Shown here in pieces: positions 11,564-32,724 of a stretch of 38,308 nucleotides of DNA. The stretch spans positions 1 through 38,308 of the IMG/VR virus record IMGVR_UViG_3300009173_000035. One strand, 5' to 3'. A program made the position numbers and the translations under genes. The stretch is from a virus. The notes under the pieces were generated by a model, which searched no databases, was not told the origin of the DNA, and saw nothing but the letters and a program-made list of their open reading frames with translations. How positions within the stretch are numbered: position 1 is the first letter of the stretch; each line of letters opens with the position of its first letter.

Positions 11564-11826
11564 ATTACGTGATGGCCTGGGAGAATACCCACAAAAGGAG
11601 CGTCAGGCTTCGTTACGACCTCTCAGGCCATCAATCTTGCCCGTTCTGCGTAATGGGGCAGGTTTCCGAGATCGGGCAACTGTGCGCTTGCTGTGGGGCC
11701 GTGGTGGCAAGTATCCATCTAAACGAGAATGATCTATTCAGGAGAAAGATGTATGCTGAAAGGCTTGAGCAAAAGAGATCGCGCCCTGGTGGACCTCCGG
11801 GCCAGGATGGGAAAGTATTTCGATGA
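11560..11826 (+). CDS. Zinc-ribbon protein
   Basis: An 88-residue protein with two CxxC knuckles, CPFC and CACC, separated by about 13 residues, indicating a zinc ribbon. Such small ribbons bind nucleic acid or act as adaptors. ATGA overlap upstream; its end overlaps the next gene by 74 bases. The C-terminus is basic and proline/glycine-rich. Exact role unknown. Confidence 0.65.
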   Translation: MNYVMAWENTHKRSVRLRYDLSGHQSCPFCVMGQVSEIGQLCACCGAVVASIHLNENDLFRRKMYAERLEQKRSRPGGPPGQDGKVFR

Positions 11827-12031
11827 ATCCGGTCTGTGTGTCCCTGCAATGGAAGTCCGAGCCAGGATGCTCAAGATCCCGGTTGCAGAGTATCGGGCGA
11901 AATGTCTCCAGTATAAAATGGACCGGCCGAATCCGGATTGGGGAACCGATCAGAAGCACCGCGAACACCAGGAGGCCTACGAGCAGTCCGTTGCCGCCAA
12001 GATGGAACGCCCTTCACACCTTCCGATCTGA
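11753..12031 (+). CDS. Hypothetical protein, helical, basic
   Basis: A 92-residue protein from the ATG at 11753 (MLKGLSKRDRALVDLRARMG), with AGGAG upstream; the longer form from 11729 lacks a ribosome site. Helical and basic, ending AKMERPSHLPI. The 74-base overlap with the zinc-ribbon gene is long, but both frames have good starts. It immediately precedes the DNA methyltransferase. Not recognised. Confidence 0.6.
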   Translation: MLKGLSKRDRALVDLRARMGKYFDESGLCVPAMEVRARMLKIPVAEYRAKCLQYKMDRPNPDWGTDQKHREHQEAYEQSVAAKMERPSHLPI

Positions 12032-12038
12032 GGACGCT

Positions 12039-12845
12039 ATGACCTTTGGTTCTTTGTTCTCGGGAATAGGAGGTATTGATTTAGGACTTGAACGTGCCGG
12101 GATGGAATGCAAATGGCAGGTGGAGATCGACCCGTTCTGCCGCAAGGTATTAGCAAAGCACTGGCCAGATGTCAGGAGGTATGAAGATGTCAGAACCGTT
12201 GGAGCAGATAACCTTGAGCCTGTCGATGTCATCGCAGGGGGGTTCCCATGTCAAGACGTATCAGTCGCAGGGAAACGCGAAGGACTCAAGGAAGGCAACA
12301 GATCGGGCCTCTGGTTTGAATACCACAGAATCATTTGCGAACTACGACCCAGATACGTCCTCGTGGAGAACGTGCCAGGCTTGCTTGCTAACGGTATGGA
12401 CCGTGTTCTCGGAGACTTGGCCGAAATCGGGTACGATGCGGAGTGGCAGGTGCTATCGGCAGCGGACATGGGGGCACCGCACCTCAGACGGCGAGTCTTC
12501 ATTGTGGCCTACCCCAGCACAGGACAGCGTGTCTATGCGGAAGAACAAATACAAGCAGGGGGGTATGCCGCTGACAACGGCGGTAATGATGTGGCATACA
12601 CCCACACGGGGAGATTCGAGAGGTGCGGGACCAAATCAGCACACAGCGACACTCGGAAGGGATATAAAACAAAAGCATGGTGGACAGTTGAACCCGACGT
12701 GGGTCGAGTGGCTAATGGGGTTCCCGCCAGGGTGGACCGACTTAAATCCCTCGGCAACGCCGTAGTGCCGCAATGCGCTGAATACATAGGACGGATGATA
12801 ATTGACCATGCCAATCAAGCCAGAGAACAAGCACTTGTACCCTGA
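12039..12845 (+). CDS. DNA C5-cytosine methyltransferase
   Basis: A 268-residue enzyme that would transfer a methyl group from S-adenosylmethionine to carbon 5 of cytosine in DNA. Motifs occur in order: motif I FSGIGGIDLGLERAG (residues about 7-21), motif IV GGFPCQ with catalytic Cys71, motif VI ENV (110-112), motif VIII RRRVF (150-154), and motif X GNAVVP (239-244). The target recognition segment between VIII and X is short (about 80 residues) and loosely packed, at the small end for the family. The ATG at 12039 gives motif I at the normal place. A second gene is read in another frame inside it. The product could protect phage DNA or feed a cytosine hypermodification pathway with the glycosyltransferase at 15294. 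Confidence 0.93.
   Translation: MTFGSLFSGIGGIDLGLERAGMECKWQVEIDPFCRKVLAKHWPDVRRYEDVRTVGADNLEPVDVIAGGFPCQDVSVAGKREGLKEGNRSGLWFEYHRIICELRPRYVLVENVPGLLANGMDRVLGDLAEIGYDAEWQVLSAADMGAPHLRRRVFIVAYPSTGQRVYAEEQIQAGGYAADNGGNDVAYTHTGRFERCGTKSAHSDTRKGYKTKAWWTVEPDVGRVANGVPARVDRLKSLGNAVVPQCAEYIGRMIIDHANQAREQALVP
12187..12765 (+). CDS. Overprinted gene inside the C5-methyltransferase (WPTP / WVEWLMGFPxGW family)
   Basis: A 192-residue frame lying wholly within the methyltransferase gene, shifted by one base. It has its own perfect AGGAGG (12174-12179) with a seven-base gap to ATG 12187. The product has DPDTSSWRTCQACLL (about 54-68), SETWPKSGTMRSGRCY (75-90), SLWPTP (105-110) and GQLNPTWVEWLMGFPPGW (166-183). 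I recall these same motifs from a widespread but uncharacterised family of phage and prophage proteins, so this is more than a chance open frame. Tryptophan-rich, with no membrane segment. Function unknown. The alternative is that database relatives are themselves misread shadows of methyltransferase genes. Confidence 0.55.
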   Translation: MSEPLEQITLSLSMSSQGGSHVKTYQSQGNAKDSRKATDRASGLNTTESFANYDPDTSSWRTCQACLLTVWTVFSETWPKSGTMRSGRCYRQRTWGHRTSDGESSLWPTPAQDSVSMRKNKYKQGGMPLTTAVMMWHTPTRGDSRGAGPNQHTATLGRDIKQKHGGQLNPTWVEWLMGFPPGWTDLNPSATP

Positions 12846-14527: not shown

Positions 14528-15304
14528 ATGGCGAAGCAACAGAAGGCCAAAGTTACAGACTTCACACCAGACAGCAAGAACGCCAACAAAGGCACGGAAC
14601 GAGGCCGGTCCCTTCTCGAAAAGTCACTTCGGGAATTGGGGGCCGGCCGTTCTATTTTGGCAGACAAGCACGGCAACCTAATAGCGGGGAACAAGACCGC
14701 AGAGGTGGCAGGGGAAATTGGCCTGGACGAGGCCATCGTAGTCGAGACAAACGGGCATCAGGTGGTGGTAGTCAAGCGGATGGACCTGGACCTGGGAGAA
14801 GATGAGAAGGCGCGGACATTGGCATATATGGACAACAGGGTTGGCGAACTCGACCTTGAGTGGGACATCGAGCAACTGTTAGAAGACAAGGAGCAGGGGG
14901 TGGCACTTCCGTGGACAGATGTCGAACTGGGCAAGATGTTTCAAACTGAAGGTGAAGACCCATATTCCAACAAGGTGAATACCCCTACTTATGAACCGTC
15001 AGAAGAAAAGCCGATGGTTGGAGAACTGTTTGACAATACCTATGCCAAACAGCTTATCGCTGACATCCGGGGATCGAGCATCCCGAAAGCAGAAAAAGAT
15101 TTCCTTATCCTGGCCGCAGGGAGGCATGTCAAGCTGGACTTCGAGCAGATCGCAGACTACTACGCTCATTCCAACAAAGAGATGCAGGAATTAATGGAGG
15201 ACAATGCCCTGGTGATCGTGGACTTCGACAAGGCCATTGAAAAAGGATGGGTGAAGCTATCCGTAAAGATGGATGCTCAGTTCGAGGAAGAAAATGAAGG
15301 ATGA
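14528..15304 (+). CDS. ParB/Srx-superfamily nuclease-domain protein
   Basis: A 258-residue protein. Residues about 10-110 resemble the ParB N-terminal-like (ParB/sulfiredoxin) domain of phage proteins: RSLLEKSLRELGAGRSILAD, then GNLIAGNKTAEVAGEIG and VVVKRMDLDLGED, followed by ARTLAYMDNRVGELDLEWD. The C-terminal half is helical and acidic. Phage ParB-like domains often occur beside DNA base modification genes and terminases; here a glycosyltransferase (ten-base overlap) and the terminase follow. A chromosome-partition role is unlikely without ParA. GGGGGGAAAAGG precedes the ATG. Confidence 0.8.
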   Translation: MAKQQKAKVTDFTPDSKNANKGTERGRSLLEKSLRELGAGRSILADKHGNLIAGNKTAEVAGEIGLDEAIVVETNGHQVVVVKRMDLDLGEDEKARTLAYMDNRVGELDLEWDIEQLLEDKEQGVALPWTDVELGKMFQTEGEDPYSNKVNTPTYEPSEEKPMVGELFDNTYAKQLIADIRGSSIPKAEKDFLILAAGRHVKLDFEQIADYYAHSNKEMQELMEDNALVIVDFDKAIEKGWVKLSVKMDAQFEEENEG

Positions 15305-16187
15305 TTTCGCCGCCTTCATCCTGACACACGGCAGGGCAAATAATGTTGCTACATACGATACCCTCAAGAAGCATGGGTATACTGGGAAAATCTACCTCCT
15401 GGTAGACGATACGGATAAACAAATCGAGGAATACAAGGAACGGTATGGGGATCAGGTAATCGTCTTTGAGAAGCAAAAAGCAATAGACATGACGAACTGC
15501 TGTGATAATTTTGGGGTGGGGAAACCGTTGGATTCAGCTTGCAACAAGACGATTACGTTTGTGCGAAATTATGCCTTTGTTATTGCGAAAGAGTTGGGCC
15601 TTAAATACTTCCTTCAGCTTGATGACGATTATACGAATTTCTGGTTTACGATTGACAATGACAGAAACTACCTGACGGCGCATAAGAAAATCCAAGACCT
15701 TGACCGGACATTTGAAATGGTGGTGGAGTTCCTGGTTGAGAGTGGCGTGCAGACCGTATGCATGTCTCAAAGTGGCGACTTCATCGGGGGGCCAAATTCC
15801 ACGATAGCGAAAGCAGGAAGGGCGGGGAAGTGGTCACGGAAGGCGATGAACTCCTTTTTTGTGTGTGTGGACAGGCCGTTTAAGTTCCTGGGACGGATGA
15901 ATGAGGATGTGAACACGTACACGTCAATGGGTAATACAGGAACCAAGTTCCTCACCATCCCGAGGTTGAGGCTCAAGCAGGGTGCATCGCAGGCGAATGA
16001 GGGTGGAATAAGCGAAATGTATCTGGACTTCGGGACTTATGTAAAGTCATTCTATACCGTTATGGTTGCGCCGTCGAGTGTGTCGGTGGGGAAAATGGGC
16101 GTGATCAATATGCGCCTTCACCATCATGTCAAATGGAAATATACAGTTCCGCAGATCGTCAGCGAAGACCTGAAGAAACACCTATAG
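15294..16187 (+). CDS. TET-associated-type glycosyltransferase (TAGT-like)
   Basis: A 297-residue GT-A-type glycosyltransferase. It starts KDDFAAFILTHGRANNVATY, has the metal and sugar-nucleotide motif LQLDDDYTNF (109-113 for LDDDY), GRMNEDVNTYTSMGN near 200-214, LDFGTYVKSFYTVMVAPSSV and RLHHHVKWK near the end. These match my memory of the TAGT family, which in phages transfers sugar to 5-hydroxymethylcytosine made by TET-type oxygenases. The gene lies between ParB-like and terminase genes, the usual neighbourhood. No TET gene is visible here, so the acceptor could be something else. The ATG at 15294 is chosen for its GAGGAAG ribosome site. Confidence 0.82.
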   Translation: MKDDFAAFILTHGRANNVATYDTLKKHGYTGKIYLLVDDTDKQIEEYKERYGDQVIVFEKQKAIDMTNCCDNFGVGKPLDSACNKTITFVRNYAFVIAKELGLKYFLQLDDDYTNFWFTIDNDRNYLTAHKKIQDLDRTFEMVVEFLVESGVQTVCMSQSGDFIGGPNSTIAKAGRAGKWSRKAMNSFFVCVDRPFKFLGRMNEDVNTYTSMGNTGTKFLTIPRLRLKQGASQANEGGISEMYLDFGTYVKSFYTVMVAPSSVSVGKMGVINMRLHHHVKWKYTVPQIVSEDLKKHL

Positions 16188-21821: not shown

Positions 21822-22790
21822 ATGGCAATCGGAGACAAAACAGATTTCGTGATCTACGAGGACGAGGCCTTTGCGGGTTTCTCCGACATGATCAAGCAAC
21901 GTTCGGACCTGTTCAACGAAGCATCGCGGGGAGCGATTACCCTGGTCACACGCGCAGAGCGTGGTGACTTCACGAAGCGTTCTTTCATTGATCGCCTTTC
22001 CGGTCTGGTGACGCGGCGTGACATTACCGCGACCACCGCCGCAACCGGAATCGCCGTCACGCAGGACGAGCAGGTTTCCGTCAAGCTGAACCGTAAGGGT
22101 GGGCCGATCGAGCAGACCCTTGATTCCTGGGCAAAAATTATGCCTGACGAAGATACCACCCGTCAGACTTCATTCCGGCTTGGGGAACAGCTTGCAAAGG
22201 CGTTCCAGGTGAACATGATCGATGCCGCCATCCGTGGTTGTGAAGCCGCGCTTGATGGTGTCGTGGCACTGGAACACAACAGGTCAGCGGGAACGCTCCG
22301 TTCTCAGGACTTGGCAGATGGCCTGGGCAAGTTGGGTGATGCCTCGAACGAGATGGTTGTGTGGGTGATGCACTCAAAGGTCGCCACCGATCTCTTGAAA
22401 GAGCAGATGGGGCTTGCAATCACCAATGTGTCGGATGTGAATATCATCGAGGGCACGATTGCAACATTGGGCCGGCCCACGTTGATCGTCGATTCCCCGG
22501 CACTGATCGAAGCAGGTTCACCCGATACATACATCACCCTGGGCTTGAAAGTTGGGGCCGTGTCTTGTGTCGAGTCTGAACTGCCGCGATTCCAGGACGA
22601 AATTGTAACAGGGCTTGAGAACCTTGTGGGCCGGGTGCAGGTCGAAACGGCCTTCAACCTGGGCGTTCTTGGATTCAAGTTCGGGGCCACCATCAACCCC
22701 ACCGATGCACAGGTGGCAACCACCGGGAACTGGACGCAGGTTTTCGCATCCCACAAATCGCTTGCGGGTTGCCGAATCTACAGTCAGTAG
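21822..22790 (+). CDS. Major capsid protein (HK97 fold)
   Basis: A 322-residue protein with a perfect AGGAGG before its ATG and a strong terminator right after it, which suits the most abundant virion protein. Sequence patterns fit an HK97-type capsid: an N-terminal arm with acidic and aromatic residues (DFVIYEDEAFAGF), a central spine-helix-like part (SFRLGEQLAKAFQVNMIDAA), and a C-terminal beta region ending GVLGFKFGATINPT. It follows scaffold directly. No delta-domain or protease gene is seen, so a separate scaffold is used. Confidence 0.88.
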   Translation: MAIGDKTDFVIYEDEAFAGFSDMIKQRSDLFNEASRGAITLVTRAERGDFTKRSFIDRLSGLVTRRDITATTAATGIAVTQDEQVSVKLNRKGGPIEQTLDSWAKIMPDEDTTRQTSFRLGEQLAKAFQVNMIDAAIRGCEAALDGVVALEHNRSAGTLRSQDLADGLGKLGDASNEMVVWVMHSKVATDLLKEQMGLAITNVSDVNIIEGTIATLGRPTLIVDSPALIEAGSPDTYITLGLKVGAVSCVESELPRFQDEIVTGLENLVGRVQVETAFNLGVLGFKFGATINPTDAQVATTGNWTQVFASHKSLAGCRIYSQ

Positions 22791-23458: not shown

Positions 23459-24493
23459 TTGAAAATTCTGTGGTTGACCACTGACCGAAGTTTGAGAGTC
23501 GCACAACTCTTTGATCCATTGCGTAAAGCGGTGGGGGAGTTGTGCGATTTGCACGTTATACAGCAGAAGGGCATCTGGTATCGAAAGGACGTGGCAGGGG
23601 GCCAGGAGGCCGAGCCGTTGCTTGAGGTGGACTTTGCCAACACCTTTGATATAATATTCACAGATGCCCCGTTCGCCTTCCTGGGTGAGCGTTGGGGGGC
23701 TATAAGCACTCCGAAATGCGCCTTGATGGAAGATCAGCACTCGCTCGTTGTTCAGGGGTATATGGAAAGCTGTTTCGAGCAGGGCTTCACCCATTTCTTT
23801 ACCCGGTATCGAGATCCCACCTACGGCAACCATTCCTATTTGTTGTCCAGGCCGACATATTGGTTGCCACATTCCATCGACCCGGAGGTGTTTCACCCCG
23901 ATTATCCTGAGAAGCAACCACCGGACCCGATGACGGCATTGTTTACCGGGTCTGTTGGGCGCAAGGAGTCCGGGGCATATCCTTTGCGGGTTCACCTCTG
24001 CAACGCCCTGGAAGGGCACCCACGCTTCGTCAGGGTGGAACGTCCTAAGGATGTGAGATCCAAGCAGGAAGCATCCGAGCGATCCGGGTATATGGGCAAG
24101 AGGTATGCCGAGTTGCTTTCAATGGCAGACCTATCATTCGCAACGGGGTCCAAGTTTCGATATGTCGTTGCCAAGTATTTCGAGATACCTGCTTGCGGGG
24201 CCGCGCTGATGTGCGACTTTATGCCAGAGATGAAGGATTTGGGATTTATACCCCTGGTGAACTGCATCGAGATCGGTACCAAGACACCGCTCACGGAACA
24301 AGTTGACTATTGGCTTTCAACCCCATATCGTAAAACCATAGCGGAGAACGGACGGCGGCTGATCCACGGGAGGCACACCACGCAGGTTCGCGCAAGGGAA
24401 CTTGTCAACACTTTTGGGAATATCATTGATGGCAAAACCGAAAGCACAACCCCAAAGACCCAACAAGAGGGCCAGCTACAACTATTGGCTTGA
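23459..24493 (+). CDS. Glycosyltransferase, CgeB-like / GT-B type
   Basis: A 344-residue protein with a TTG start (23459) and a weak GGGGGG purine site. The C-terminal half (residues about 200-320) is typical of CgeB-like GT1 enzymes: RYAELLSMADLSFATGSKFR, YFEIPACGAALMCDF, EMKDLGFIP and VDYWLSTPYRKTIAENGRR. The N-terminal half has a nucleotide-binding-like start (KILWLTTDRSL). It should move a sugar from a nucleotide donor to an acceptor. First gene of the cassette; the acceptor could be a capsid protein, another glycan or DNA. It overlaps the next gene by 65 bases. Confidence 0.85.
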   Translation: MKILWLTTDRSLRVAQLFDPLRKAVGELCDLHVIQQKGIWYRKDVAGGQEAEPLLEVDFANTFDIIFTDAPFAFLGERWGAISTPKCALMEDQHSLVVQGYMESCFEQGFTHFFTRYRDPTYGNHSYLLSRPTYWLPHSIDPEVFHPDYPEKQPPDPMTALFTGSVGRKESGAYPLRVHLCNALEGHPRFVRVERPKDVRSKQEASERSGYMGKRYAELLSMADLSFATGSKFRYVVAKYFEIPACGAALMCDFMPEMKDLGFIPLVNCIEIGTKTPLTEQVDYWLSTPYRKTIAENGRRLIHGRHTTQVRARELVNTFGNIIDGKTESTTPKTQQEGQLQLLA

Positions 24494-25022
24494 GCCTGAC
24501 AATCTGATGAAGCAAGCGCATGTTCACCGCTACAATGAGGCGGCGTGTTTTGTGTCTGGCCGCGTGGTTGATCTGGCTTGTGGTTGGGGAATGGGCACGT
24601 CGATACTTGCCGATGTGGACATGGTGGATTCGGTGTTCGGTATGGACGCAGATTTGGAAGCGATCAATTTTGCATCCAGGCAATGCCCGAATATTGCGTT
24701 TGGAATATCCGATTTCAACAGTCCACATTTCCATGTTCCCACCGCAGTCGATTGGGTGGTGTCCCTGGAAACCATAGAACACCTCGAGGATCCGATACAG
24801 TTTGTTGCAAAAATCAAGGATGCCGCCGCCGTGGGCGTGGTGGTGTCCGTTCCAATAGAACCCACAAAATCAAAGAACGCTTTCCACCTTCACGACTTTA
24901 CCGCAGATCAAGTTGATAGTTGGTTCCCTCGGTGGACAATCAAAGCAGATAGACGCCTTATGCAGAAGGTAGGCAATAGAACAATCGCGCTCGGCAAGTT
25001 GGGGGTATATCTCAAGCCGTGA
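24429..25022 (+). CDS. Class I SAM-dependent methyltransferase (sugar- or small-molecule-type)
   Basis: A 197-residue protein starting MAKPKAQPQRPNKRASYNYW. The SAM-binding motif is VVDLACGWGMGTSILA (about residues 46-61), with an acidic residue at the end of strand 2 (FGMDADLEAI) and VDWVVSLETIEHLEDP as motif post-I/II. This is the Methyltransf_11/23 pattern used on small molecules and glycans. It lies between glycosyltransferases, so O-methylation of a sugar is likely. The ATG at 24429 is chosen from a weak TTGGGA site; it overlaps the previous gene by 65 bases. Confidence 0.85.
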   Translation: MAKPKAQPQRPNKRASYNYWLEPDNLMKQAHVHRYNEAACFVSGRVVDLACGWGMGTSILADVDMVDSVFGMDADLEAINFASRQCPNIAFGISDFNSPHFHVPTAVDWVVSLETIEHLEDPIQFVAKIKDAAAVGVVVSVPIEPTKSKNAFHLHDFTADQVDSWFPRWTIKADRRLMQKVGNRTIALGKLGVYLKP

Positions 25023-25798
25023 TACACGATTTCACATTCATGATTAAAACACTGTTGCGCCCGGAGGCGTTGGGACGGTTGCTCCCGACCCTCCGGGCCT
25101 TCTATCCAGATACCCCGGTGATGATAGCCGACGATTCGCCAGACCCATACCCGGAGGTGGCAAAAGGATTCGATTGTGAATATTTCACATACCCATACGA
25201 CATCGGGATCGGCCATTGTTACAACGATATGCTGGACAAGATCAAGACTCCTGGCGTGGTCCTTCTCGATGACGATTTTATATTTTCCAAACAGACGGAA
25301 GTCGAAAAGCTGTGGGCCTGGGTTGCGTCCGGGCTATATGATCTTGTGGGAGGGCGGGTCTGGAATACCACGCGCCGGGACTTTCAAGGGTTCGTGGGAT
25401 TTTTCTACTCAGATGGAGAGAACATCACAAGCCTGAAGAAAGTGCCACAAGACAAGGTGCGGACAATCAAGCAGGTAGACATAACGATGAACTTTTGGGC
25501 GGCGTCAACCGAGTCTCTGCGGAGGGTCAGATGGAACGAGGAACTAAAGGTGTGCCGACACGAAGATTTCTTCTTGAGATACTTAGGCCACACGCCAACG
25601 AAGCGGAGGGGGCTGCCCAAAGCGGCGCAGGTGGGACACAAGCACCGGGTGGGGTTCTATCCGCAGTGTATCGTAACACACGACAACAGGAGTTTCATGG
25701 GGCGGGACAAAAACCACGAATACATCTGGCATCGCAAGGGCAGGTTTGACACGTTCCGTCAGGTGTTCATTGATATTTGGGGGTTTGAATTCGTATGA
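25019..25798 (+). CDS. GT-A glycosyltransferase, paralogue 1 (GalNAc-transferase-like)
   Basis: A 259-residue protein with a GTG start overlapping the previous stop. It begins FMIKTLLRPEALGRLLPTL, has VMIADDSPDPYPEVA (first acid motif), the DxD-type LLDDDFIF near residue 83, a conserved TMNFWAAST and CRHEDFFLR. This recalls beta-1,4-N-acetylgalactosaminyltransferase-like GT-A enzymes (GT2/GT12). The genes at 26459 and 30861 are clear paralogues. It is coupled to the next gene by ATGA. Confidence 0.85.
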   Translation: MIHDFTFMIKTLLRPEALGRLLPTLRAFYPDTPVMIADDSPDPYPEVAKGFDCEYFTYPYDIGIGHCYNDMLDKIKTPGVVLLDDDFIFSKQTEVEKLWAWVASGLYDLVGGRVWNTTRRDFQGFVGFFYSDGENITSLKKVPQDKVRTIKQVDITMNFWAASTESLRRVRWNEELKVCRHEDFFLRYLGHTPTKRRGLPKAAQVGHKHRVGFYPQCIVTHDNRSFMGRDKNHEYIWHRKGRFDTFRQVFIDIWGFEFV

Positions 25799-26541
25799 TC
25801 GGCATCGTGATAGGCTACCGGGAAGATGAAGAAAGGCCAGAGCGCACCGAGAACTTGAACAACGCGGTCCAGGCATTGATGGACCAAGAGTTCGCCGGGT
25901 CTGTCCGGGTTGTGGTATGCGAACAGTCAGAGAAGGGAACGCTAAAAAACTATCACCCTTTCGGGTGGGTGTGGGACGAATACACATTACCGTTCAACAG
26001 GTCCAGGGCGTTCAACCTGGGCGCAAGGGTCTTGCCACATTGCGACACGCTGTGTTTCTTCGATGCCGACATTCTGGTTGATCGGTGGTGGGTGAAAAGA
26101 TGTTCCGATCAGATGGTGGGCAACGATTTGATTATCCCATATACTACCGTGAACTATTTAAAGGAGAAGGGAACCCCGGCTGTCGTAGAGGCAAGGAAAA
26201 GGTCAGGGTCCGTTCCTGAAGTATCGCCAGAGCGCAGGGCGCGTTTTGCTTATGGTGGCGTTCTGTGGATCACCCGCACCCTGTTCGAATTGTCTGGTGG
26301 ATACGACGAGCAATACATCGGATGGGGTGCAGAAGATGACGATTACGTGTGGCGGCTGAAACAGTTGGGGCCTGTAATGAGGATGGACGAAACCTTGACG
26401 CATATGTGGCACGCCCCGGCAGACATGGACCGGGCACAACTCAATAAGGACATTTACTTTGCAAAACGATTTGTACGTGACCGCCGTTATCAAGACGATT
26501 TGCAGACCGGAGAGCTTGCGCCGGCTGTTGCTGTCGATTAG
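25795..26541 (+). CDS. GT2 glycosyltransferase with galactosyltransferase-type C-terminus
   Basis: A 248-residue protein. The DxD-type motif is CFFDADILVD (about residues 81-90). The segment AYGGVLWITRTLFELSGGYD followed by WGAEDDDYVWRL (about 151-189) is typical of the Glyco_transf_7C acceptor/donor region of beta-galactosyl- and GalNAc-type enzymes. It is not closely similar to the three paralogues around it. ATGA overlap with the previous gene; its last 83 bases are also coding for the next gene in another frame. Confidence 0.87.
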   Translation: MIGIVIGYREDEERPERTENLNNAVQALMDQEFAGSVRVVVCEQSEKGTLKNYHPFGWVWDEYTLPFNRSRAFNLGARVLPHCDTLCFFDADILVDRWWVKRCSDQMVGNDLIIPYTTVNYLKEKGTPAVVEARKRSGSVPEVSPERRARFAYGGVLWITRTLFELSGGYDEQYIGWGAEDDDYVWRLKQLGPVMRMDETLTHMWHAPADMDRAQLNKDIYFAKRFVRDRRYQDDLQTGELAPAVAVD

Positions 26542-27220
26542 GGATTTCTACCCTGACCTGCGGATTCTGATTGCAGATGATTCCCCGGAGCCATACCCGG
26601 AGGTAGCCAGGGAGATTGACCCGACCATCCAGTATCACGTTTTGCCAACGGATGCCGGGGCGGGGGAATCATACAACAGGCTGATGGAATTCGTCACCAC
26701 GGAACACGTTCTGATGCTGGATGACGATTTCGAACTGTCAGGGGAAACGGACCTTGTGTTGATGGAGGACTTGTTATACCTGTCCGAGATCGATCTTCTT
26801 GGAGGGAGGATCTTTCAGCCAGACGGAACGGAACACAACTACGAATTCAACCTGTCCTTGAACGATGACATAATGTATTGCCACACGGTGAAGCGAAGTC
26901 CGATAGAGGTGATGCGATGCGACACGGTGCTGAATTTCTGGATGGCCCGAACGGAGGCTGTCAAGGTGGTGGGGTGGGATGATAGGCAGAAGATCATGCG
27001 CCACCTGGATTTCTTCTTTCGGACGAACAAGGGCAAGTTGAAGGTGGGCTTTACGCCTCAAGTCGGCATCAATCACTTCCCCGCAATGAACGATGAGTAT
27101 TTGCAGTATCGCCACGGGGCAGAAAGGGTGCAGGAGCATATCGTATATTTCCTCGAGAAGTGGGGCTTGGAAGCTGTGTTGTCAGATCGGTTTCAATATC
27201 GCAGACGGGAGACAGCATGA
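26459..27220 (+). CDS. GT-A glycosyltransferase, paralogue 2
   Basis: A 253-residue protein starting at a TTG (26459) with AAGGA upstream, inside the end of the previous gene. Key matches to paralogue 1: VIKTICRPESLRRLLLSIR, ILIADDSPEPYPEVA, LMLDDDFELSG, VLNFWMART and MRHLDFFFR. The acid-rich D-D-D motif for metal and sugar-nucleotide binding is intact. The DNA also keeps an identical CCATACCCGGAGGT stretch shared with paralogue 1, so the duplication may be fairly recent. ATGA overlap with the epimerase gene. Confidence 0.85.
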   Translation: MQNDLYVTAVIKTICRPESLRRLLLSIRDFYPDLRILIADDSPEPYPEVAREIDPTIQYHVLPTDAGAGESYNRLMEFVTTEHVLMLDDDFELSGETDLVLMEDLLYLSEIDLLGGRIFQPDGTEHNYEFNLSLNDDIMYCHTVKRSPIEVMRCDTVLNFWMARTEAVKVVGWDDRQKIMRHLDFFFRTNKGKLKVGFTPQVGINHFPAMNDEYLQYRHGAERVQEHIVYFLEKWGLEAVLSDRFQYRRRETA

Positions 27221-28107
27221 GATACTTCATCACAGGGAGCGCAGGGTTCATAGGGCAGAACTTGATAAAGAATATCGGAATGGCGAACGTGTGTGCCGGG
27301 TATGATATTGCCGATAGTCCCGTTGAAAATCTGTATAACGTGGACCACCTCAGACATGCGATGGAAACTTTTCGCCCGGACGCTGTTGTCCATCTTGCCG
27401 CTGAGACTTCCGTGCCTGGGTCGTTTGGGAATCCTGCATTGCATATTGAAAACAATTACATCGGCACACAGAACGTTTTCTTTACAGCACAAAGTGCAGG
27501 GGTGAAGCAGTTTGTCTTCGCTTCATCCTGTGCCGCCGAGAAGATGGGTAGCCCTTATGCTGTGAGCAAGGCCGCGGCAGAGCAGTTCCTTGAATCAGAG
27601 ATGCGGGGCTACAAGTCGTTGGGCGTCCCGGAGTTCTGGTACAACATCCTGCGATTTGCAAACGTCTACGGGCCAGGGTCGGACAAGAAAAGTTCAGTAA
27701 TCGCCCGCTTCTGCCGGGAGGTGTTGGAATCCAATTCCGTGACGATCAACGGTGAAGGTTCTCAGATGCGCGACTTTGTCCATGTCGATGATGTGTGCCG
27801 GGCCATTATGCATGTCACAAAAGAGATATGCCCACCGGGGCCGCATTACGTGGGAACGAATCAAATGACTTCGATAAACGAACTTGTGCGACTGCTGGAA
27901 GATGCTCGAGGGAACCAAGATGTGGTGGACCCGCCTATTGTGGTCAAGCGAGGCCCGGAAGATGTGGCCGATGGGATTCCGCACATTGATTGTCCGACTG
28001 TGCCAGGATGGGAAGCAAAGACCAGACTTGAATCCGGGCTTGTTTCAACCTACAATTACTTTTATCAGAAAGCGGTATCGGAAAGGCGTGATTGCACAGT
28101 GATGTAA
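27217..28107 (+). CDS. NAD-dependent nucleotide-sugar epimerase/dehydratase
   Basis: A 296-residue extended short-chain dehydrogenase. NAD-binding motif TGSAGFIGQNL near residues 6-16, VVHLAAETSVPGSF near 58-71, and the catalytic YAVSK (Y-x3-K) in GSPYAVSKAAAEQFL. The substrate part FANVYGPGSDKKS and the MRDFVHVDDVCRAI run follow. It resembles GalE/RfbB-like enzymes that change a UDP- or dTDP-sugar. It probably makes a donor for the glycosyltransferases alongside it. The ATG at 27217 overlaps the previous stop. Confidence 0.9.
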   Translation: MRYFITGSAGFIGQNLIKNIGMANVCAGYDIADSPVENLYNVDHLRHAMETFRPDAVVHLAAETSVPGSFGNPALHIENNYIGTQNVFFTAQSAGVKQFVFASSCAAEKMGSPYAVSKAAAEQFLESEMRGYKSLGVPEFWYNILRFANVYGPGSDKKSSVIARFCREVLESNSVTINGEGSQMRDFVHVDDVCRAIMHVTKEICPPGPHYVGTNQMTSINELVRLLEDARGNQDVVDPPIVVKRGPEDVADGIPHIDCPTVPGWEAKTRLESGLVSTYNYFYQKAVSERRDCTVM

Positions 28108-28141
28108 TTCGTTGTTCGCAGATTTCCAAAGGAGACAGACG

Positions 28142-29452
28142 ATGGGCGAGCTGAGAGTATTTATCGCAGGGATCGATGGCTATTTGGGCCACGCGTTGGC
28201 GCAGTATCTAATGAGCCGGGGCCATTACGTTTCGGGGTGTGATTGCCACCACCGGAGAGAATGGGTCAAATCCGAGGGCGGCGACACCGCCATCCCAATC
28301 GGAACCCCTGGTGAGAGGCACCATTATTTTAAGGAGCGTTTCGGCAAGCTGTGGGTAGGCAGTTACAATATCAACATCGCCCACGAAGACAACTACGGCA
28401 AACTGGCAGGGAAGTTCGCAGACCTGAAACCACATGCCGTTGTGCATCTGGCCGAAATGCCGAGCGCACCGTTCTCTATGATTTCCAGGGAACACGCCGC
28501 AATGACCCACATGAACAACGTGGTGGGTTCGCTCAACGTGATCTATGCCATCCGGGGGAGTTGCCCCGATGCCCACCTTGTGAAGTTGGGAACGATGGGA
28601 GAGTATGGGACGCCGCCAGGGACCATTATACCCGAGGGGGTTTTTCCAGAGGGTTCGCATTGGGATATTGAAATGCCCATTGTGCAAGGGGGGCAGGAAA
28701 CGGGCACCCAATACAGCAAGAGCTATGTTCTCGACGGCTTAATGTTTCCCCGCCAAGCAGGTTCGTGGTATCACCAGACGAAAGTCCACGACACCAACAA
28801 CGTCAATTTCGCCTGTCGTATGTGGGGTCTGAGATCAACGGACATTATGCAGGGGGTTGTCTACGGAACCCGGATCAAGGAGATGGACGAGAACCCCATG
28901 TCTGCCACCCGGTTTGATTTCGATGAATGCTTTGGAACAGCGATCAACAGGTTCTGCTCTCAAGCGACTATCGGGATGCCGCTGACCGTCTATGGCAACG
29001 GGACACAGAAACGGGGGTTCCTGCCCCTTTGTGATTCGATGCAGTGTTTAGCCATAGCGATCGAGCAACCCCCGGCAGAGGGCGAATACCGCGTCTGGAA
29101 TCAATTCGAGGAAGTCTATTCAATCCGGGCATTGGCGCAAGCTGTCGCTTCCTCTGCTTCTGTCCCTGTGGAGATCGAGAACGTGCCGAACCCCCGCAAA
29201 GAGGCAGAGGGGCATATGTACGAGGCTGAACATTCGACCCTGCTCAAGATGGGGTATGTTCCAACGAATGACCTGTCCGGGCAGATTGTGGGCATCTTGG
29301 AGGATCTGGAACCCCACGCGGACCGCATACGCAGGTATGCAGACACAATTATGCCTCAGATCACCTGGGACGGTGGGGAATATGACGAGAAGGTGGACCC
29401 TGTGGCGGGAAACGGGGCAGAGGTCGAAGATAAAACGGAATTCCATATATAA
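28142..29452 (+). CDS. UDP-sulfoquinovose synthase-like enzyme (SQD1/SqdB type)
   Basis: A 436-residue extended short-chain dehydrogenase. Similarity to UDP-sulfoquinovose synthase is unusually specific: VVHLAEMPSAPFSMI, HLVKLGTMGEYGTP (Thr151), FPRQAGSWYHQTKVHDTNN (Tyr210, Lys214), STDIMQGVVYGTR, FGTAINRFCSQATIGMPLTV, YRVWNQFEEVYSI and VPNPRKEAEGHMYEAEH. In plants and bacteria this enzyme joins sulfite to UDP-glucose to make UDP-sulfoquinovose, the sugar of sulfolipid. The catalytic T, Y and K are all present. It differs near residues 160-200, where an extra segment is inserted. AAAGGAG precedes ATG 28142. It is rare to see this in a phage; the exact sugar product remains to be shown. Confidence 0.82.
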   Translation: MGELRVFIAGIDGYLGHALAQYLMSRGHYVSGCDCHHRREWVKSEGGDTAIPIGTPGERHHYFKERFGKLWVGSYNINIAHEDNYGKLAGKFADLKPHAVVHLAEMPSAPFSMISREHAAMTHMNNVVGSLNVIYAIRGSCPDAHLVKLGTMGEYGTPPGTIIPEGVFPEGSHWDIEMPIVQGGQETGTQYSKSYVLDGLMFPRQAGSWYHQTKVHDTNNVNFACRMWGLRSTDIMQGVVYGTRIKEMDENPMSATRFDFDECFGTAINRFCSQATIGMPLTVYGNGTQKRGFLPLCDSMQCLAIAIEQPPAEGEYRVWNQFEEVYSIRALAQAVASSASVPVEIENVPNPRKEAEGHMYEAEHSTLLKMGYVPTNDLSGQIVGILEDLEPHADRIRRYADTIMPQITWDGGEYDEKVDPVAGNGAEVEDKTEFHI

Positions 29453-29503
29453 CCCGAGAAAGGGGATAGGCCGTTAGGGTCGCTCTATGGCGTTCCTGTG
29501 GAC

Positions 29504-29517
29504 TATCCACGTGAATA
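29504..29517 (+). repeat. CACGTG-centred motif, copy 3
   Basis: TATCCACGTGAATA, the 14-base core shared by all three copies. It ends four bases before the ATG at 29521, and its left half forms a small hairpin with GTGGA (29498-29502). Confidence 0.55.
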
Positions 29518-29520
29518 CAG

Positions 29521-30147
29521 ATGATCGAGGACAAAGGGACATTTTTAGGTCGCCCGATGGCACAAACAAGGGAAGCAGTCAGGATGTGGGAGATCATCTT
29601 GAGTTCTCTTGACTTTGCCCGGCTGATCGAATTGGGAACGGGCCGGGGCAACCTGTCCCTTTTCTTCGCCCTGTATTGCGTATCAAGAAGCAGGGCATTT
29701 CATACTTTCGACAATGCAAAGCGGTGGGTAGAGGATCCGACAACTTCGAGGGTTGACCTTGAGTGGTGTTTTACTGAGGTCAATGTATTTAGCCGCATGG
29801 GGTCCGATATTGTCAAAGGACATTTGCAGAGGGAAGGGCAAGCGGTTCTGTTCTGCGACAACGGCCACAAGACAAAGGAAGTGAAGTGGTTTGCGCCCCA
29901 TATGAAGGCGGGGGATGTGATTGCCATTCACGATTGGGGAACGGAATGCAAGTTCAAGGACGTGTCCGAAACTCTGCTCGGGTGGGAAAAGTATCTTCCT
30001 GAGGCGTGGGATGGATCAACGGCAGTTTTCCAGAAAGGGGAATTGGATGGATCGCAGAGAGATTGCAATAAGCCTGTTGAACTCGCGGATTTTGGTGGAG
30101 AGGGCGTTGAACCTGAACGAGCAGATGATGAACCAAGCCCTGGATGA
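29521..30147 (+). CDS. SAM-dependent methyltransferase, cephalosporin hydroxylase/Methyltransf_24-like
   Basis: A 208-residue protein. The motif I region is LIELGTGRGNLSLFFALY (about residues 35-52), followed by FHTFDNAKRW and VLFCDNGHKTKEVKWFAPHM, then GDVIAIHDWGTE, which is the acidic/HD end of the CmcI-like and Methyltransf_24 group. It probably methylates a sugar or small molecule. No clear Shine-Dalgarno precedes the ATG; instead the CACGTG motif lies there. Its 3' end overlaps the next small gene. Confidence 0.78.
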   Translation: MIEDKGTFLGRPMAQTREAVRMWEIILSSLDFARLIELGTGRGNLSLFFALYCVSRSRAFHTFDNAKRWVEDPTTSRVDLEWCFTEVNVFSRMGSDIVKGHLQREGQAVLFCDNGHKTKEVKWFAPHMKAGDVIAIHDWGTECKFKDVSETLLGWEKYLPEAWDGSTAVFQKGELDGSQRDCNKPVELADFGGEGVEPERADDEPSPG

Positions 30148-30217
30148 CGCAGACCTGTTTATCAAGTTGGAAAAAGCACATGCCGACCCGAAGACCAGAG
30201 GGGAACATAAGTCGTGA
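30047..30217 (+). CDS. 56-residue helical protein
   Basis: Starts MDRREIAISLLNSRILVERA at 30047 with AAAGGGGA as ribosome site, inside the end of the methyltransferase gene. Helical and charged. Its TGA overlaps the GTG start of the adenine methyltransferase (GTGA). Possibly a small partner of one of the methyltransferases; not recognised. Confidence 0.6.
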   Translation: MDRREIAISLLNSRILVERALNLNEQMMNQALDDADLFIKLEKAHADPKTRGEHKS

Positions 30218-30864
30218 AGGCCTACTACCAGGATGATGCTTGCACCATATACCACGGTGACTGCCGTGACATCCTACCGCATCTGGAGCCGGTGGATCTT
30301 GTGCTGACGGACCCGCCGTATGGGATACAGATAGTGCGCAAGCCAAAAGAATTTGGCTTGCGCACAGATTTAAGCAGAAAAGCAACAGATGAGTGTTGGG
30401 ACGATACCACCCCTGACAAGCGTATATGGCCTATGATTTTTTCAAAATCGCAGAATCAGATTGTATTTGGAGCAAATTTCTTTTGGGAACAATTTACGTC
30501 TTGCACTTGCTACATAATTTGGGACAAAAGAGGCAATTTGCCTACTGTGCCATTTTCACCTATGGAAATGGCATGGTCATCCTTTAAGAGAATGCCCATC
30601 AAATATACTTGCATTAATCATGGATTTATTAAGGACAGCAAGGAACATAAATCACACCCCACGCAAAAACCTTTGAAACTCATTACTCAAATCGTAAATG
30701 ATTTTAGTGATGAGGACAACATTCTCCTCGATCCATTCATGGGCAGTGGAACAACCCTCCGCGCCGCCAAGGACTTAGGCCGTAAATCTATTGGGATTGA
30801 ACTGGAAGAGAAGTATTGCGAGATTGCCGTGGAGCGGCTCAGGCAGGAGGTGTTGGCCTTTTGA
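30214..30864 (+). CDS. DNA adenine-N6 / cytosine-N4 methyltransferase
   Basis: A 216-residue DNA amino-methyltransferase. The catalytic motif IV is LTDPPYG (DPPY at residues 33-36) and comes before the target region, while HPTQKP (148-153) and the SAM motif DPFMGSGTT (173-181) are C-terminal, the beta-class order. DPPY favours adenine N6. The target-recognition middle (30330-30700) is A/T-rich, unlike its surroundings, and begins with a perfect 14-bp inverted repeat. Such a gene could protect phage DNA or mark host sites. GTG start overlapping the previous stop. Confidence 0.9.
   Translation: MKAYYQDDACTIYHGDCRDILPHLEPVDLVLTDPPYGIQIVRKPKEFGLRTDLSRKATDECWDDTTPDKRIWPMIFSKSQNQIVFGANFFWEQFTSCTCYIIWDKRGNLPTVPFSPMEMAWSSFKRMPIKYTCINHGFIKDSKEHKSHPTQKPLKLITQIVNDFSDEDNILLDPFMGSGTTLRAAKDLGRKSIGIELEEKYCEIAVERLRQEVLAF
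30334..30365 (+). repeat. Perfect 14-bp inverted repeat inside the adenine methyltransferase
   Basis: GTGCGCAAGCCAAA (30334-30347), loop AGAA, TTTGGCTTGCGCAC (30352-30365). It is coding, yet exactly palindromic, and lies at the left edge of the A/T-rich target-recognition segment. Confidence 0.85.
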
Positions 30865-31553
30865 AAAATGTCACCTTTGCAATCAAGACCTATGAACGCC
30901 CGGCCCTGGCTGAAAGGTGCGTCGAATCCATCCTGAAGTATTACCCCGAAGCAACGCTCCTGGTGGGTGATGATGGTAAGCGGATGGTCTACAACGGTCC
31001 CGGGCGTCTGGTCCTGCCTCACGACATTGGACTGTCAGCAGGGCGCAATGCGTTGGTGAAAGCCACTACCACGAAATACGTGGTAATCTTGGAAGATGAT
31101 TTCGTGTTCAATTCTCACACAAAAATCGAAAACTTGCTTACATTCGTATCGTGCGGTATCTTTGATATTGCAGGGGGGATACAGACACACAACGGGGAAC
31201 ACATACCGTTCGAAGGTTCTGTCTCCTGGCAAAGAGGCGTGGTTGACCTTGTAGCGAACAGAAAGAAGGGGCCGACGAAGGTCGATGTGGTTCCGAACTT
31301 CTTACTTGCAAAAACGGAGACATTGATAAATATCCAGTGGGATGCTCGGTTGAAGATGGGCGAACACCTGGATTTTTTCATGCGATGTAAGCAGAAGGGC
31401 ATCAAGGTCGGCACAGTGCCTGCGGTAAGCATAGAACACAAGAAAGAAAAGGTCCGGGGATATATGGACGAGAGGAAACAGAAGGCGGCTGACTGCCGGG
31501 AACTGTTCTGCAAGAAGTGGAACTTGACTAACATCCCCTGGCAATTCCAATAA
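30861..31553 (+). CDS. GT-A glycosyltransferase, paralogue 3
   Basis: A 230-residue protein starting at TTG 30861, which overlaps the previous stop (TTGA); AGGAGG lies ten bases before it. It matches paralogues 1 and 2: FAIKTYERPALAERCVESIL, LVGDDGK, VVILEDDFVFNSHTKIENLL, FLLAKTETL and GEHLDFFMRC. The metal motif is EDD rather than DDD. It is the most divergent and shortest of the three. Last gene of the cassette, 12 bases before the head-tail connector gene. Confidence 0.82.
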   Translation: MKNVTFAIKTYERPALAERCVESILKYYPEATLLVGDDGKRMVYNGPGRLVLPHDIGLSAGRNALVKATTTKYVVILEDDFVFNSHTKIENLLTFVSCGIFDIAGGIQTHNGEHIPFEGSVSWQRGVVDLVANRKKGPTKVDVVPNFLLAKTETLINIQWDARLKMGEHLDFFMRCKQKGIKVGTVPAVSIEHKKEKVRGYMDERKQKAADCRELFCKKWNLTNIPWQFQ

Positions 31554-32250: not shown

Positions 32251-32724
32251 ATGCCCGTATCTGCCAGACTGATAGGCCAACAGCGGCTCGAGCAAATGTA
32301 CCGCGATGTGGAGATACAGACTGACAAGACGTTTCGTGCCGCCGCGCGTGAGATAGACGATGCCTTTCAAGATGCGATGGAGAAACAGTTTCGCACCGAG
32401 GGCAGTTCCCTCCTGGGTAGGCGGTGGAAGTCCCTGTCTACCGAATATGCAAAACGGAAGGCACGTAAATTCGGGAAGAAAACGATCCTGCGCCGCACCG
32501 ACAGGCTTTTCGATTCCCTCGTCACGCGGTCACACTCCGAACACATATTCCGCATCCAGGGGCCGCGTATCACGATGGGTAGCAAAGTCCCGTATGGAAG
32601 GTTTCATCAAGATGGCGGCAGGAAAAAGGGTAGGCCACCACGCAGGCAGATTATCAAAGTCCCTGGGTGGCTCCTCAAGAAGTGGACCGCGATCTTGCAC
32701 AAGCACCTGTGGAAAAAGAGGTAA
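32251..32724 (+). CDS. Virion morphogenesis / tail completion protein (gpS-like)
   Basis: A 157-residue basic protein. The pattern FRTEGSSLLGRRWKSLSTEY, KILRRT-like DRLFDSLV and YGRFHQDGGRKKGRPPRRQI matches phage virion morphogenesis (tail completion S, DUF/Phage_tail_S) proteins, which finish the head-tail joint. The GRFHQ signature is characteristic. It starts one base after the connector stop. Confidence 0.85.
   Translation: MPVSARLIGQQRLEQMYRDVEIQTDKTFRAAAREIDDAFQDAMEKQFRTEGSSLLGRRWKSLSTEYAKRKARKFGKKTILRRTDRLFDSLVTRSHSEHIFRIQGPRITMGSKVPYGRFHQDGGRKKGRPPRRQIIKVPGWLLKKWTAILHKHLWKKR

Follow-up and report, generated by a model that had tools for sequence, protein, structure and literature searches.

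The closest described relatives of the gene reported here are SQD1 of Arabidopsis, Agl3 of Sulfolobus acidocaldarius and SqdB of Sinorhizobium meliloti, all of which belong to the UDP-sulfoquinovose synthase family of short-chain dehydrogenase/reductases (SDRs). The route of Agl3 consists of C4 oxidation, 5,6-dehydration and addition of sulfite, and when sulfite is left out the enzyme releases UDP-glucose-5,6-ene (PMC4388408). The Ala-scanning of Agl3 showed that His95, Arg101, Met145, Tyr182 and Lys186 are indispensable and that Glu147, Tyr148, Ser180 and Thr185 are important, the R101A mutant being inactive (PMC4388408). Among the tabulated sugar-nucleotide dehydratases, the signature [ST]MG...YxxxK is given for UDP-sulfoquinovose synthase alone (PMC8987622). 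In phages, a survey has reported a putative UDP-sulfoquinovose synthase as an auxiliary metabolic gene of a Mu-like virus from the Cariaco Basin (PMC7785012). It is hence no novelty that the family occurs in phages, and the remark in a preliminary description of our gene that no such phage pathway had been described was only partly right.

Our gene lies in the window, that is, the whole stretch of 38.3 kb of DNA that was analyzed. The window is a phage with genes for the terminase, portal, head morphogenesis, scaffold, major head protein, neck and tape measure. A second contig, IMGVR_UViG_3300010883_009200, is nearly identical to it (2 mismatches in 12,897 bases).

Family assignment of the gene

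The open reading frame on the plus strand starts with the ATG at 28142, and its stop codon ends at 29452 (Table 1). An AAGGAG ribosome site, which was rated as good, stands directly upstream. This site, the phage genes flanking on both sides and the nearly identical second contig rule out a chance or contaminant reading frame. The coordinates and all sequence blocks quoted in the preliminary description were found as given there.

When the protein was searched against the PDB sequences, Arabidopsis SQD1 was matched with E=6e-84, and the next molecule followed at 6e-5. The NCBIfam profile for UDP-sulfoquinovose synthase (NF041015) matched with 438 bits (E=3e-131). An AlphaFold model was obtained with a mean pLDDT of 88.8 and a pTM of 0.89, and the best three Foldseek matches of this model were SQD1 entries (8e-46, TM-score 0.91 by target). 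The next Foldseek match, UDP-Glc 4-epimerase, had an E-value of 7e-21, which is about 25 orders of magnitude behind. The identity of our protein was 44.0% with SQD1 and 43.7% with Agl3, while that between SQD1 and Agl3 themselves was 44.6%. The family signature is also present, as Thr151-Met152-Gly153 with Tyr210 and Lys214.

The score of 438 bits is below the curated cut-off of NF041015, which is 575. The profile is centered on archaeal copies, and Thaumarchaeal copies of the same type as ours exceed the cut-off, but a cyanobacterial copy with Arg at position 101 also reaches only about 470. Because this cyanobacterial copy falls short too, the low score is no argument against membership, and we dropped it as such. 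An ordinary epimerase or 4,6-dehydratase was also considered and rejected: the GalE, RmlB, PseB and LegB models gave less than 20 bits against 438, and TMG stands in place of DE/DK. In the broad sense, the gene thus truly belongs to the SQD1 family and is not an ordinary epimerase, as had been proposed.

Catalytic residues and position 101

Thr151, Tyr210 and Lys214, which had been named as the catalytic residues, aligned with Thr145, Tyr182 and Lys186 of SQD1. The catalytic residues recognized in our protein are Thr151, Met152, Glu154, Tyr155, Ser208, Tyr210, His211, Thr213 and Lys214. Among the residues whose mutation affects Agl3, His95, Met145, Glu147, Tyr148, Ser180, Tyr182, Thr185 and Lys186 are kept as His102, Met152, Glu154, Tyr155, Ser208, Tyr210, Thr213 and Lys214. 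The sole exception is Arg101 (SQD1 numbering), essential in Agl3, at which our protein has Pro107. Judging from the alignment, then, all residues on which oxidation and elimination are known to depend are conserved, Arg101 apart. The exchange at this residue is absent from the preliminary description. Because the defining residue Arg101 was looked for and Pro was found, we do not file the protein as a proven UDP-sulfoquinovose synthase.

Position 101 was compared across 178 aligned sequences. Outgroup apart, Arg was found in 35, Pro in 141 and Lys in 1, and no other column of the alignment splits the groups as cleanly. The 35 sequences with Arg (Arg-type) contain the reference enzymes SQD1, Agl3 and the SqdB encoded on S. 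meliloti pSymB. The Agl3 gene was recognized as locus L206 by the exact R101A primer sequence, with AGA (Arg) where the primer has the mutant codon. The sequences with Pro are referred to as Pro-type.

In the phylogeny, our gene falls within the SQD1/Agl3 family and not in a non-sulfite SDR group, the placement that the preliminary description had named as contrary to its proposal. It stands outside the Arg groups, but the larger clade to which it belongs also includes Agl3 as a nested member. S. meliloti SqdB is farther from it than SQD1 or Agl3. When the tree was built without the column of position 101, the Arg/Pro state changed at least 5 times and Agl3 was nested among Pro-type sequences. 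Where the synthesis of sulfoquinovose is documented, Arg was thus either gained or retained more than once. A loss of the sulfite-binding residues had also been named as contrary to a sulfonated product, and it is found in part: the substrate-site Arg101 is Pro here and in the other Pro-type sequences sampled, all of which are outside the SQD1, Agl3 and SqdB groups.

The role of Arg101 is drawn from the Agl3 mutants and from GalE, since in our own alignment position 101 corresponds by motif spacing to Lys84 of GalE, a residue described as taking part in recognition of the sugar (PMC7984243). This correspondence and the clean Arg/Pro split, with its repeated changes on the column-free tree, favor an alternative that we regard as quite possible although short of probable. 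That is, the Pro-type enzymes may be a separate functional branch, which would perform the same C4 oxidation and 5,6-elimination but would either use another UDP-sugar (e.g., UDP-GlcNAc) or end the reaction differently (by releasing the 5,6-ene or by adding another nucleophile), and whose product would be a C6-modified hexose other than sulfoquinovose. However, every residue of the C6 chemistry is kept in our protein. In addition, the position that matches GalE Lys84 is Ala in the true UDP-glucose epimerases 4zrm and 2p5u, and the exchange of Arg for Pro alone is therefore no proof of a different substrate.

The lengthened hairpin

The preliminary description had pointed out that residues 160-200 differ from those of the known enzymes and had taken this as a sign of a possibly related reaction. 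The difference is real, and the stretch is a viral elaboration of a length-variable hairpin, by which the active site is not lost; its hairpin nature had not been recognized. The stretch 158-199 has 41 residues in our protein and 19 in 80 of the 80 cellular copies sampled. It is longer than 19 residues in 49 of 79 viral copies.

Occurrence in viruses and cells

The family is encoded on at least 120 IMG/VR contigs. When 96 distinct viral copies were compared, a sequence pattern placed 84 in the Pro-type, and inspection by eye added 6 to these; 4 were Arg-type (L062, L064, L223 and L258) and 2 were left without assignment. The four Arg-type copies look like canonical UDP-sulfoquinovose synthase genes. 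On one of these contigs (L064) the gene adjoins thyX, a class-III aminotransferase gene and a DNA polymerase III alpha gene. The 50,697 isolate phage records yielded no carrier of the family with our protein, the Pro-type L050 or the Arg-type L064 as query; the queries either matched nothing or gave SDR matches that were short or weak. We found no description of the Pro-type branch and its extent in the literature searched.

In one large phage lineage, which is distant from the window and comprises L016, L032, L050, L061 and some 30 viral loci related to them, the Pro-type gene is located in the replication module, between dCMP deaminase or Sak4 genes on one side and a ParB-DNA-methyltransferase fusion and DNA polymerase on the other, with an exonuclease nearby. 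A GT2 glycosyltransferase is encoded elsewhere in 16 of the 20 longer records of this lineage. In this lineage the GT2 adjoins a terminase-like gene, the terminase being recognized by eye from its Walker motif. Besides the window, 43 viral records in which the gene occurs were inspected for GT2, and 31 of them carry it.

Around 46 cellular genes of the Pro-type, the neighbors encode epimerases, GT2 enzymes, methyltransferases, cytidylyltransferases and aminotransferases, that is, general polysaccharide functions. No sulfur-metabolism family is among their 25 commonest neighbors, a count for which the Arg-type set is too small to serve as a comparison. In several Anaerolineae (L083, L088, L089, L091, L095 and others), the Pro-type gene is part of a conserved block that also includes the genes for prephenate dehydratase, semialdehyde dehydrogenase and histidinol dehydrogenase.

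Some Pro-type genes, in phages (L042, L074-L077 and L080) as well as in bacteria (L084 and L157), are near genes for NeuB, a NeuC-type UDP-GlcNAc 2-epimerase or a CMP-sugar transferase. Not all three are present at every such locus; the NeuC-type match is well above its cut-off. This clustering suggests a modified nonulosonic acid, and since such pathways start from UDP-GlcNAc, it also speaks for the separate branch considered above. Such neighbors were absent from the Arg-type bacterial loci, of which a small sample of 11 was examined. On the other hand, NeuB is missing from the cluster of our gene and was found in only 2 of the 35 viral records tested, both outside the group of the window. 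We rejected a nonulosonic-acid pathway as the role of our gene on these grounds.

The glycan gene cluster

The features around the gene are listed in Table 1.

Table 1. Positions of the gene, its distinctive segments and the neighboring genes in the window
Feature	Position	Strand	Evidence or remark
Major head protein	21822..22790	+	Upstream limit of glycan cluster
Glycosyltransferase (PF13524)	23459..24493	+	Common to L005, L008, L011
SAM methyltransferase	24402..25022	+	
GT2-like glycosyltransferase	25019..25798	+	
Galactosyltransferase-like glycosyltransferase	25795..26541	+	
GT2 glycosyltransferase	26459..27220	+	
Second extended SDR (nucleotide-sugar epimerase/reductase-like)	27217..28107	+	Adjacent to and codirectional with the gene
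SQD1/SqdB/Agl3-family SDR, Pro-type, 436 aa	28142..29452	+	Sequence, profile, model fold, residue alignment
Codons 106-107 (Met-Pro) at SQD1 Gln100-Arg101 position	28457..28462	+	Alignment
Lengthened beta-hairpin, predicted strands 173-182 and 185-196	28640..28735 (codons 167-198)	+	Model, length comparison
Methyltransferase	29521..30147	+	Weak PF13578, weak rhamnosyl O-methyltransferase-like match
GT2 glycosyltransferase	30816..31553	+	
Neck/tail completion protein	32251..32724	+	Downstream limit of glycan cluster

As had been described, the gene stands among glycosyltransferases and methyltransferases inside the structural genes: these enzymes span 23459-31553, between the major head and neck genes. 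The block around the gene contains the glycosyltransferases, two methyltransferases, the second SDR and a DNA methyltransferase. The SDR neighbor recurs next to relatives of our gene, and the nearest phage relatives (L005, L008 and L011) have the glycosyltransferases of the window in common. In L008, the gene directly precedes the tape-measure gene. Our gene is thus accompanied by glycan genes within the late virion region, and we therefore think that virion glycosylation is its likeliest role.

It could also be thought that the enzyme alters the membrane sulfolipid or the surface glycans of the host, as auxiliary metabolism or for superinfection exclusion, and not the virion. Classically, SQD1 and SqdB serve to make the head group of the sulfolipid, and a role in host glycosylation was proposed for the copy of the Mu-like virus (PMC7785012). 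However, no sulfolipid-synthase-like partner was recognized, the neighborhood of S. meliloti SqdB, which consists of SqdB and one glycosyltransferase (L166), differs from that of our gene, and the cluster sits among late structural genes. We consider a host target quite unlikely.

DNA was the other target that the preliminary description had suggested for the sugar. A TAGT-family glycosyltransferase (PF20691) is encoded at 15273-16184 of the window, directly after a ParB-like gene (14528-15304), and the same phage encodes a C5-cytosine DNA methylase (PF00145) at 11823-12845. In coliphage records, relatives of the TAGT adjoin an annotated partitioning protein. The activated sugar might accordingly be used by these two enzymes for hypermodification of the phage DNA; T6-type phages use TAGT on cytosine sugars (PMC13390438), and the replication-module lineage described above has the gene by dCMP deaminase and the ParB-methyltransferase fusion. 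However, the TAGT co-occurs with the gene in none of the 43 other viral records, some of which are partial, and no TET/JBP oxygenase was recognized in the window. Moreover, a distance of 12 kb separates the TAGT from our gene; it stands by the ParB and terminase genes and outside the cluster. We rejected the link through TAGT; the idea of DNA as the target finds no specific support here, and we regard hypermodification as very improbable.

Proposed function

Our best overall explanation, to which we give about an even chance, is that the gene encodes a Pro-type, NAD-dependent SDR of the UDP-sulfoquinovose synthase family that makes UDP-sulfoquinovose or a close C6-modified analogue for the glycosyltransferases of the cluster. 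The enzyme would bind a UDP-hexose, in the simplest case UDP-glucose. Its C4 would be oxidized by tightly bound NAD+ via Tyr210 and Lys214, water would be eliminated across C5-C6, a nucleophile, which is sulfite in all characterized relatives, would add at C6, and C4 would be reduced again. The glycosyltransferases of the same cluster would transfer the resulting sugar, most likely onto virion proteins, and the neighboring methyltransferases would perhaps methylate it.

The steps of this explanation differ in strength. The family, the fold, the conserved catalytic residues, the phage setting and the cluster are established by the analysis. The 4-keto/5,6-ene chemistry is highly probable, and the use of the product by the transferases of the cluster is probable. 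Virion protein is the target with even chances, and sulfite and UDP-glucose as the actual substrates fall a little short of that. That is, the enzyme very probably works like UDP-sulfoquinovose synthase up to the 5,6-ene step, and the addition of sulfite after this step is close to an even bet. It is likely to be a C6-activating UDP-hexose enzyme, for which sulfite addition is plausible. The sulfonated product that had been proposed is favored by the family and the catalytic residues but weakened by the exchange of Arg101 to Pro107. Against our explanation we also counted that no sulfite-producing gene was recognized within the window, that the bacterial neighbors are general polysaccharide genes, no sulfur family being among the 25 commonest, and that nonulosonic-acid genes accompany some Pro-type genes, a hint of another product. 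Taken comprehensively, the best reading is that the gene provides an activated sugar, possibly a sulfonated one, with which the virion is glycosylated.

Should the enzyme yield UDP-sulfoquinovose, phages would glycosylate their own products with a sugar that is sulfonated and strongly acidic, and the literature searched describes no such role of sulfoquinovose in phages. We also consider, tentatively, that the Pro-type enzyme may be a distinct, undescribed sugar-nucleotide synthase, which would use the 4-keto/5,6-ene chemistry of sulfoquinovose synthase for another C6-modified sugar and would have been widely taken up by uncultivated phages, in many with the lengthened hairpin, as the donor-maker for their own glycosyltransferases. 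If the product does differ, most phage genes and many bacterial ones would be wrongly labeled as UDP-sulfoquinovose synthase in the databases on which auxiliary-gene surveys draw, and the two enzyme types could be told apart simply by looking for Arg101 in the sequence.

Comparison with known systems

SQD1 (PDB 1i24, 1qrr and 1i2b) resembles our protein in fold, in identity (44%), in the TMGEY and YHxxK motifs and in all catalytic residues. It differs in having Arg101 where our protein has Pro, and in Phe97 and Thr217, which are Leu and Ile, respectively, in our protein. Furthermore, our protein is viral, and the hairpin that separates the TMG from the YxxxK motif is longer in it by 22 residues. 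Agl3 likewise shares 44% identity and all residues found important by Ala-scanning except Arg101, and has the shorter hairpin; it serves protein glycosylation and not lipid synthesis. S. meliloti SqdB belongs to the same family with 33% identity to our protein, but it keeps the Arg and has a single adjoining glycosyltransferase gene. The copy of the Mu-like virus is, like ours, a phage-encoded family member, although its authors read it as acting on host N-glycosylation (PMC7785012). Pro-type homologues occur in Anaerolineae, Desulfobacterota, Acidobacteriota, Thaumarchaeota and uncultivated phages. The nearest cellular copies have 53-56% identity and the same Pro-Ser-Ala-Pro motif as our protein, and differ from it in the short hairpin, which is found in all 80 sampled.
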